A stretch of 9,718 nt of DNA from positions 107 through 9,824 of the forward strand of contig PEWQ01000009.1 in the NCBI GenBank assembly GCA_002780065.1, read 5' to 3'. Source of the DNA: Candidatus Hydrogenedentes bacterium CG07_land_8_20_14_0_80_42_17 (GTDB lineage: Bacteria > UBA8481). The notes beneath the pieces were generated by a model. It did not search any database and was not told the origin of the DNA. It worked only from the letters and a program-made list of their open reading frames with translations. The position numbers and the translations under genes are program-made. Each line of letters starts with the position of its first letter. Position 1 is the first letter of the stretch. Shown piece after piece: positions 7,256 through 9,718 of the stretch.

Positions 7256-8563
7256 ATGAAGACTCGAAAAAAACTTTGGGGCGGCGGCTATGGTAAAGCA
7301 ACTGCCGGAATAGTGGAACAATTTACGCAGTCAGTTTCTTTTGATAAACGGCTTGCGCCTTTCGATATTAGAGGCTCTATCGCACATGCGGAGATGCTCG
7401 GCCGGACTGGAATTATCTCGAGAAAAGATTCGGATAAAATCGTAAGAGGTTTGAAGACGATTTTGAGTGATATCGAAAAAGGTAAATTTACTTGGGACGA
7501 GTCGCTTGAAGATTTGCATATGAACATCGAATCAGAATTGACGAGACGGATCGGTGAAGCTGGGAAGCGCCTTCACACTGGCAGGAGCAGGAACGATCAG
7601 GTTGCAACTGCGTTTCGGCTTTATTGCGCAGACGCGTCGAGAAGGATTATTTACGCGATTAGAGATTTAATTTCCGCCATAGATAAGGTCTCGAAGCAAT
7701 ACAAAGGCAAACTTATGCCGGCATACACTCATCTTCAGCAGGCTCAGCCGACAACTTTTGATTTGTGGCTGAGCGCCTATCGCGAGATGCTTTTACGTGA
7801 TATCGCGCGTTTCGAAGATGCGGCTTCTCTGGCAATGGCTTCTTCGCCGCTTGGCTCAGGAGCTCTCATGGGCTCTTCACTGCCGCTCGACAGAAAGTAT
7901 ACTGCTGAGAAATTGGGATTCGAAAAGGTTTCGGTCTCGACATTGGATTCGGTTTCGGATCGGGATTTTGCATTGGAGCTGCTATTTGCTTCTGCGCTAT
8001 TTCAAATTCATCTTTCGAGATTGGCTGAGGATTTGATTGTTTATTCGACAAAGGAATTTGGTTTTGTGAAGCTCGATGATTCCGTGACTACCGGCTCTTC
8101 GTTGATGCCGCAGAAAAAGAATCCTGATGTTTGCGAATTGACTCGTGGAAAGTCCGGCCGCGTTATAGGGAATCTTGTTTCTTTGTTGACTACAATTAAG
8201 GGACTGCCGATGACATACAACAGAGATCTGCAGGAGGACAAAGAGCCGGTTTTTGATTCTGTGGATACTGTTATTCTTTCAGCGTCCGCAATGTCCCTTG
8301 CAGTGAATACGATGAAGTTCAATTCAGAGCGAGCTGAATCCGCAATCGATCCGTCGATGATGGCGACTGATCTTGCCGAGCATTTAGTCGAACATGGAAT
8401 GCCTTTTCGCGAGGCGCATGAGACAGTTGCGCGGCTTATTCACAGCGGCGTGAATTTGTCAAAGTGTGTAGCTGCCGACCTAGAAGAACTGCATCCATTA
8501 TTAAAGGGTGCGTTCAATCGCCTTTCACCTCATGAGTCGGTTAGACGTAGAAGCAAAAGATAA
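7256..8563 (+). CDS. argH: Argininosuccinate lyase (ArgH), shortened C-terminus
   Basis: Splits argininosuccinate into arginine and fumarate; a homotetrameric member of the fumarase/aspartase superfamily. Motifs in order are KLWGGGY (6-12), HTGRSRNDQVATAFRLY (107-123), the general-acid region YTHLQQAQP (157-165, His159), and the flexible catalytic loop TTGSSLMPQKKNPDVCEL (278-295, Ser281/Ser282). DLAEHLVEHGMPFREAH (372-388) and a HPL segment near residue 413 mark the C-terminal domain. At 435 residues it stops at SVRRRSKR, where the family usually continues through a GGTAP-like motif and one more helix, about 20-25 residues further. No continuation is seen in the next frames. The active-site segments are intact. 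It starts 4 bases after the argG stop without a clear ribosome site, so it is probably translated by coupling. Confidence 0.95.
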   Translation: MKTRKKLWGGGYGKATAGIVEQFTQSVSFDKRLAPFDIRGSIAHAEMLGRTGIISRKDSDKIVRGLKTILSDIEKGKFTWDESLEDLHMNIESELTRRIGEAGKRLHTGRSRNDQVATAFRLYCADASRRIIYAIRDLISAIDKVSKQYKGKLMPAYTHLQQAQPTTFDLWLSAYREMLLRDIARFEDAASLAMASSPLGSGALMGSSLPLDRKYTAEKLGFEKVSVSTLDSVSDRDFALELLFASALFQIHLSRLAEDLIVYSTKEFGFVKLDDSVTTGSSLMPQKKNPDVCELTRGKSGRVIGNLVSLLTTIKGLPMTYNRDLQEDKEPVFDSVDTVILSASAMSLAVNTMKFNSERAESAIDPSMMATDLAEHLVEHGMPFREAHETVARLIHSGVNLSKCVAADLEELHPLLKGAFNRLSPHESVRRRSKR

Positions 8564-8619
8564 TATTTTCTATTAAGTTTTTGCCTATAGTTTTTCACAT
8601 AAATTACATACAAAAGTAC

Positions 8620-8645
8620 AGTAATGGACATTTTTTAATATTACT
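8620..8645. repeat. Inverted repeat AGTAAT-N14-ATTACT upstream of recA
   Basis: AGTAAT (8620-8625) and ATTACT (8640-8645) are exact reverse complements across 14 bases and lie 26-52 bp upstream of the sigma-54-like element. It could be a regulator site or a chance match in AT-rich sequence. Confidence 0.35.
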
Positions 8646-8671
8646 ATTTTGATTTTATGAGAGTTATATTA

Positions 8672-8687
8672 TGGCACGATTAATGCT
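8672..8687 (+). promoter_or_regulatory. Sigma-54 (RpoN)-type -24/-12 promoter motif upstream of recA
   Basis: TGGCACG (8672-8678), ATTA, then ATGCT (8683-8687) matches the RpoN consensus TGGCACG-N4-TTGCW at all but one of the specified positions. The invariant GG (8673-8674) and GC (8685-8686) are exactly 10 bases apart. Transcription would begin near 8697-8698, about 50 bases before the recA GTG. No clear sigma-70 promoter competes in the region. An RpoN promoter would need an AAA+ enhancer-binding protein, not seen here. Sequence match only. Confidence 0.5.
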
Positions 8688-8700
8688 TTAACAATAAATA

Positions 8701-8717
8701 TGCGCTTGCTTGGCGCA
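8701..8717 (+). promoter_or_regulatory. Short hairpin or operator in the recA leader
   Basis: TGCGC (8701-8705) and GCGCA (8713-8717) form a perfect 5-bp inverted repeat around a 7-base spacer, a GC-rich island in AT-rich surroundings. It lies between the predicted start of transcription and the recA ribosome site, so it could be an RNA hairpin or a repressor site, including a lineage-specific SOS operator. Confidence 0.4.
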
Positions 8718-8734
8718 AATAAATTATTGAAGTT

Positions 8735-8743
8735 GGAAAGGAG
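8735..8743 (+). promoter_or_regulatory. recA ribosome binding site
   Basis: GGAAAGGAG ends 6 bases before the GTG at 8750. This is one of the strongest sites in the window and favours the GTG as the recA start over the in-frame ATG at 8798. Confidence 0.8.
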
Positions 8744-8749
8744 TACATT

Positions 8750-9718
8750 GTGGGTGCTGTTATATCTAGAGCTGGTATTGATAAAGAGGATGGAAAGATG
8801 GAAGAACGGAAGAATGCGGCGCTGAAGGCGGCAATGGATCAAATTTCAAAAGATTTTGGTAAGGGCTCGATCATGAGACTTGGAGATAAAAACTTTTCGA
8901 TCGATGTTGAGGCCGCTACAACCGGAATACTGGGGCTTGATATTGCATTAGGAGTAGGAGGACTTCCGCGCGGCCGGATTATTGAAGTGTTCGGACCTGA
9001 ATCCGGCGGCAAGACAACTCTTTGTCTGCATGCTATTGCGGCAATTCAGAAAAGCGGAGGTACTGCGGCATTCATCGACGCAGAACATGCATTGGATCCG
9101 GCTTACGCGGCAAAATTGGGAATTCAGCTTGAATCACTTCTTGTGTCTCAGCCTGGAACGGGCGAGGAGGCTCTCGAAATTACAGATGCTCTCGTCAGAT
9201 CCGGAGCGGTCGATATTGTTGTTATCGACTCCGTGGCCGCTCTGGTTCCAAAGGCTGAGATCGAAGGTGATATGGGTGATCAGCACATGGGACTTCAGGC
9301 TAGGCTCATGAGTCAGGCTTTGCGTAAACTCACGGCAAGTATCTCGCGCTCTAAGACGATATGTGTTTTCATCAATCAACTTCGTGAAAAGATTGGAATC
9401 ATGTTCGGTAATCCGGAAACTACTCCCGGCGGCAGAGCATTGAAGTTTTATTCTTCAATACGTATTGACGTGCGCGGTGGAGAGACTATTAAGAATGGTA
9501 CAGAAATTATCGGCAGAAAAATGAAGGTGAAGGTTGTGAAGAATAAGGTTGCGCCGCCTTTCAAGAATACTTTGCTTGATGTGATTTACGGTGAAGGAAT
9601 ATCGAGCGAAGGCTCGCTGATCGATCTTGGAATTGAACACAAAATTCTCGAGACGAGAGGAACTTGGATAAGATGGAATGAAGAAGGACTTGGGCAGGGA
9701 AGAGAAAAAGCCAAAGAA
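8750..9718 (+). CDS. recA: Recombinase RecA (partial, runs off the right edge)
   Basis: RecA forms ATP-dependent filaments on single-stranded DNA, drives strand exchange and activates LexA self-cleavage. The 323 codons seen cover the N-terminal domain and the ATPase core and enter the C-terminal domain; the stop is beyond the window. Motifs are [10 protein letters not shown] (36-45), Walker [10 protein letters not shown] (82-90; the common form has SS), the catalytic glutamate in DAEHALD (Glu112), Walker [13 protein letters not shown] (154-165), loop L1 [22 protein letters not shown] (172-193) and loop L2 [21 protein letters not shown] (208-228). Translation from the GTG gives about 16 residues more at the N-terminus than usual. 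The ATG at 8798 (Met17) gives the conventional length and has GAGG 8 bases before it, so two starts are possible. The reading frame is open throughout. Confidence 0.97.

Follow-up and report, generated by a model that had tools for sequence, protein, structure and literature searches.

The recA gene is usually regarded as a standard LexA/sigma-70 gene. In mycobacteria it is transcribed from a LexA-dependent promoter, P2, and from a start-proximal, LexA-independent promoter, P1, which is under the control of PafBC (PMC5656591), and pneumococcal recA has a basal promoter as well as a sigma-X competence promoter (PMC11708029). In cyanobacteria, recA and ssb are among the common targets of LexA (PMC3091678). 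Here we describe the analysis of a stretch of 9,718 nucleotides (nt) from Candidatus Hydrogenedentes bacterium CG07_land_8_20_14_0_80_42_17 (contig PEWQ01000009.1; the window), in which a -24/-12 element of the sigma-54 (RpoN) type precedes recA. The genome of the window (G000) comprises 2.39 Mb in 207 contigs and is 86.9% complete. Full-text searches of the open-access literature found no description of an RpoN-driven recA, and the ProPr54 paper contains nothing on recA.

The element, TGGCACG-N4-ATGCT (TGGCACGATTAATGCT), is located at 8672..8687 on the plus strand, with the GG at 8673-8674, the GC at 8685-8686 and N10 between them, and deviates from the consensus TGGCACGNNNNTTGCW in one position only (A for T). 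An earlier note, made from the letters of the window alone, had described this motif with its GG-N10-GC geometry and single mismatch, and our analysis confirmed it at exactly these positions. The element starts 78 nt upstream of the GTG of recA (8750); with the transcription start expected 12 nt past the GC, the predicted +1 lies at approximately 8698. It is the sole one-mismatch match to the consensus within the window, and the whole 2.39-Mb genome contains no perfect and 14 one-mismatch matches. A scoring matrix was built from 12 promoter-placed sites of G000 and of G001, a member of the same order and another family and the sole other genome of the phylum that was compared. The recA sites and the G000 site before a second SSB gene (ssb2, see below) were held out; the G001 ssb2 site was included and scores 13.6 bits once held out. 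By this matrix the recA site reaches 21.9 of approximately 24.4 bits, compared with 10.9 bits for the runner-up in the window, and no score as high was obtained in 3 Mb of random sequence. Positions 8672-8687 most likely represent a functional sigma-54 promoter.

G000 encodes one RpoN (496 amino acids, E 2.4e-63) with an intact RpoN box, ARRTITKYRE, together with eight strong matches to bacterial enhancer-binding proteins (bEBPs). G001 has two recA genes (G001:C23 and G001:C103; L152 and L153), the products of which are 76% and 72% identical to that of the window, and in a RecA tree, which took in minus-strand G loci misread in orientation, all three form one group with full support. The nearest of them, at 76% identity, carries TGGCACGCAATATGCT (core TGGCACGcaatATGCT) 96 nt before its ATG, and 11 of 11 core bases are the same as in the recA site of the window. 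When the 400 bp upstream of this gene were shuffled 20,000 times, an equal 11-base core arose twice, and the site is one of five perfect matches to the pattern TGGCACGNNNNNTGCW in the whole G001 genome. The DNA flanking the recA sites does not align between the two genomes, and the gene upstream of recA is a different one in G001, so that the match is not explained by conserved gene order. The first G001 recA alone carries the site, as no convincing one was found before the second (L153; best 9.1 bits). Among 109 recA upstream regions surveyed (three loci had stops in the checked frame), only those of G001 and of a Desulfosporosinus metagenome-assembled genome (MAG), L048, exceeded the reverse-strand controls (at most 14.7 bits).

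A test that went beyond those proposed in the earlier note concerned an ssb paralogue operon, which shows the same type of site in both genomes. In G000, TGGCACGNNNNNTGCW has three perfect matches, namely before recA, within a gene and before a small CarD-like open reading frame (Pfam CarD_TRCF_RID 20.4 bits, under the 23-bit cut-off), which is followed by the SSB paralogue ssb2. The CarD-like orthologue in G001 (38% identical, E 1e-11) has an ATGCT-type site, AGGCACGATAAATGCT, upstream; contig C127 ends at this point and the SSB2 orthologue (40% identical) begins contig C113. As the same layout is found before the CarD-like/SSB2 operon as before recA, a small regulon for recombination, consisting of recA and the second SSB, is probably under RpoN control in this phylum. 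No convincing sigma-54 site was seen at the other SSB genes in the fetched stretches L192 and L193.

Classical sigma-54 promoters are found in these genomes as well: glnA has a -24/-12 site in both of them (TGGCATGGAGTTTGCT and TGGCACGGCCATTGCT), and the pilin genes of G001 carry TGGCACGATGCTTGCA and CGGCACGCGTTTTGCT. These share the same-consensus GG-N10-GC element with the repair promoters, in which, however, ATGCT stands in place of the TTGCW seen at glnA and the pilins and whose target is DNA recombination. Places in G000 with at most one mismatch to TGGCACGNNNNNTGCW number 31 and are mostly coding; clearly promoter-placed among them are those of recA, CarD-like/ssb2, glnA, an S41 protease, a DUF4114 protein and a lipoprotein-like gene, these names being partly derived from reading. 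The exact GTACNNNNGTAC was too strict as a search pattern and hit one place in G000.

Upstream of the sigma-54 element the gap contains a LexA-type palindrome, ATACAAAAGTACAGT, at 8608..8622 (plus strand), which overlaps a weak sigma-70-like promoter, TTCACA-17-TACAGT, at 8594..8622 (plus strand; 9 of 12 matches). The genome encodes, together with dinB, a LexA that combines an HTH with an S24 peptidase domain (TIGR00498 109.5 bits, slightly below the cut-off of 110.95), and the clearest copy of the palindrome, GTATACGAACGTATAC, is found in the lexA-dinB promoter, 33 nt before the lexA start. Both of these palindromes and that of ssb2, GTACTTTAGTACAAT, fit the pattern RTACNNNNGTAYANT, which has five matches in the genome, all of them intergenic. 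The remaining two precede a murC-like gene and a ribonucleotide-reductase-like gene; in the latter case the box is 252 nt away and lies nearer to a guaB-like gene, which is divergent. The distance from the beginning of the box to the sigma-54 site is 64 nt at recA and 63 nt at ssb2. This putative box resembles the cyanobacterial LexA boxes, RGTACNNNDGTWCB (PMC3091678), in being a pseudo-palindrome with TAC/GTA half-sites and a 4-nt spacer, and differs from them in that its half-sites are ATAC or GTAC.

We consider it likely, with a probability of about 0.72, that recA is served by a distal LexA-controlled promoter and a proximal sigma-54 promoter. The LexA-type box with its overlapping sigma-70-like match, approximately 60 nt upstream of the sigma-54 site, would give the usual SOS input, and the RpoN promoter would transcribe recA from about 8698 once a bEBP is active, thereby providing a proximal, second input. 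The elements themselves, RpoN, the bEBPs, LexA and the conservation of the sigma-54 site before recA and ssb2 in two genomes can be read directly from the sequences. From these we infer that the sigma-54 sites are active, that the box is bound by LexA and that both inputs add up. Because the LexA-type box stands upstream, RpoN most likely supplements control by LexA rather than taking its place. The earlier note had proposed RpoN control of recA in a gap without a LexA box or a clear sigma-70 promoter, to be checked by a search for rpoN and bEBP genes and for conservation of GG and GC before the recA of relatives. The proposed control is strengthened on both counts, the genes being present and GG and GC being kept in G001, the one relative compared, whereas the supposed lack of LexA and sigma-70 signals is doubtful in view of the palindrome and the weak match that it overlaps.

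Such an arrangement would resemble mycobacterial recA in having one input via LexA and another via a LexA-independent promoter closer to the start codon. The mycobacterial P1 is however a PafBC-dependent tTGTCRgtg-N8-TannnT promoter (PMC5656591), whereas the proximal element here is a -24/-12 RpoN site. With the pneumococcal system it would share an alternative sigma factor that raises recA along with an SSB paralogue; pneumococcal sigma-X, in contrast, belongs to the sigma-70 family, has its site before cinA and serves transformation (PMC11708029), whereas in the present case RpoN is the factor and we found no connection with uptake genes. RpoN promoters at recA and at an SSB paralogue, conserved in both genomes compared, would tie recombination capacity to an ATP-driven activator with a signal of its own, and makes it a testable question what, besides DNA damage, calls for RecA.

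Several points weigh against a dual LexA and RpoN control. In the recA site an A precedes the TGC where a T is usual, and the sigma-70-like match is weak (2 sites of that quality in the region versus 0.9 expected in shuffles). Three of the five matches to the box pattern had themselves served to define it, so that the count of five lends support without being independent evidence, and in G001 we found no LexA box. With two genomes of the phylum, conservation amounts to one comparison per gene, and since C127 ends where it does and SSB2 starts C113, the CarD-like/ssb2 operon of G001 is joined across a contig break by inference only. It could be argued that the match is fortuitous or decayed and that the LexA/sigma-70-type promoter alone transcribes recA, as consensus matches with at most three mismatches are no more common in the window than by chance (9 observed versus 12.7 expected) and the one-mismatch places across the genome are mostly intragenic. 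The conservation before both recA and CarD-like/ssb2 in G001, the high matrix score and the promoter position make this very unlikely. It is highly improbable, in turn, that the RpoN holoenzyme mainly blocks readthrough from the upstream promoter, the site acting as a repressing one until the activator appears. Since the site is located downstream of the LexA-type box and upstream of the start codon, a closed complex would be encountered by transcription from the distal promoter, but no sequence feature demands this, and an active promoter would be expected to be conserved in the same way.

Another explanation accepts the sigma-54 promoter as real and regards the palindrome as the site of a bEBP that activates recA and ssb2 instead of a LexA box. 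The fixed distance of 64/63 nt to the -24 box is in the usual range for activator sites, and at the G001 recA 5 of 6 bases of TACNNNNGTA are matched at a position that begins 64 nt upstream of the sigma-54 site. The clearest copy of the palindrome, however, is that of the lexA-dinB promoter, which has no strong sigma-54 site nearby (best 13.0 bits), and we regard this explanation as unlikely. A role of the RpoN control of both genes in natural transformation, by which recA and ssb2 would belong to a competence regulon, seems quite unlikely. The pilin genes of G001 carry sigma-54 sites and dprA is present in G000 and G001; yet dprA has no sigma-54 site upstream in G000, and its sole match in the fetched G001 stretch falls within an open frame (comEC and comEA were not examined).

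In addition to the palindrome at 8608-8622, a second candidate for an upstream activator site at recA is the promoter-proximal element GATTTTATGAGAGTTATATTA at 8651..8671 (plus strand), directly before the -24 box. Near-copies of it are found at a CARF-domain bEBP gene and at a response-regulator gene of G001. The CARF-bEBP is encoded by the first gene of a type III-A csm operon and has GATTTTACGAGAGTTGTATAT at the same distance from TGGCATACAGAGTGCA as in recA; in the latter sequence GG-N10-GC is kept and which is weak by the matrix (7.1 bits). The motif GTTRYAY occurs just before the -24 box in four of five repair or defence promoters (csm/CARF-bEBP, G000 recA and both ssb2 promoters), the fifth, G001 recA, having GTTGTCT in its place; it is absent, within about 15 nt, from all of 13 further putative sigma-54 sites. 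As this motif was picked after the sites had been seen, it is only a lead.

The csm operon lies on the minus strand at L235:602-9218 (G000:C139) and encodes Csm1 (624.8 bits), Csm2, RAMP genes and a weak Csm6-HEPN match. Its first gene encodes a sigma-54 activator of the CARF/RtcR type (Pfam RtcR 25.2 bits, over the cut-off; Sigma54_activat 203.5 bits), and the site before this gene, on the minus strand of L235, is located approximately 7.0 kb from the locus end in reverse and adjoins a masked stretch. Such a position within a csm operon looks unusual, because the RtcR-like family is singled out among the CARF families for not being located near cas genes (Makarova et al. 2014, PMC4012209). 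In G001:C9 (L179:1471-1516), GATTTTACGAGAGTTATGT has two mismatches in 17 positions to the recA element and lies 30 nt before TGGCACGCTCATTGCC, which precedes a response-regulator gene downstream of a bEBP gene.

It is tempting to speculate that the CARF-bEBP is a candidate activator of recA. A more far-reaching suggestion, to which we give little credence, would be that in this phylum RpoN runs a genome-defence regulon in which the csm-encoded CARF-bEBP, possibly activated by cyclic oligoadenylates that Cas10 produces upon invasion, switches on its own csm operon, recA and ssb2 via -24/-12 sites sharing the proximal GAGAGTT element. If true, this would link clustered regularly interspaced short palindromic repeat (CRISPR) signalling to recombination. 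In Salmonella, RtcR, the CARF-type activator of a sigma-54 system, has been connected with the SOS response and responds downstream of RecA and LexA (PMC9879122). There, however, RpoN drives RNA repair genes after RecA activation, whereas here the RpoN site is before recA itself and no RtcB was found in G000.

Concerning other bacteria, the Desulfosporosinus MAG has an intergenic GGGCACGAAATTTGCT at L048:2743-2758 (16.7 bits), 238 nt before recA, which is possibly an independent case of a sigma-54 site before this gene. A match upstream of the recA of L089 was set aside as it falls within the upstream gene.

The recA gene of the window (8750..9718, plus strand; TIGR02012 500.9 bits, Pfam RecA 448 bits) has a GTG start and is truncated by the contig end. 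A ribosome-binding site, GGAAAGGAG, is read from the sequence at 8735..8743 (plus strand). A gap of 186 nt separates recA from an argH-type gene (7256..8563, plus strand; an open reading frame of 435 amino acids), and the window further contains dapA-, lysA-, his- and arg-type genes, all names except recA being taken from reading the translations. Near the beginning of the transcript predicted for the sigma-54 promoter there is a small inverted repeat, TGCGCTTGCTTGGCGCA, at 8701-8717.
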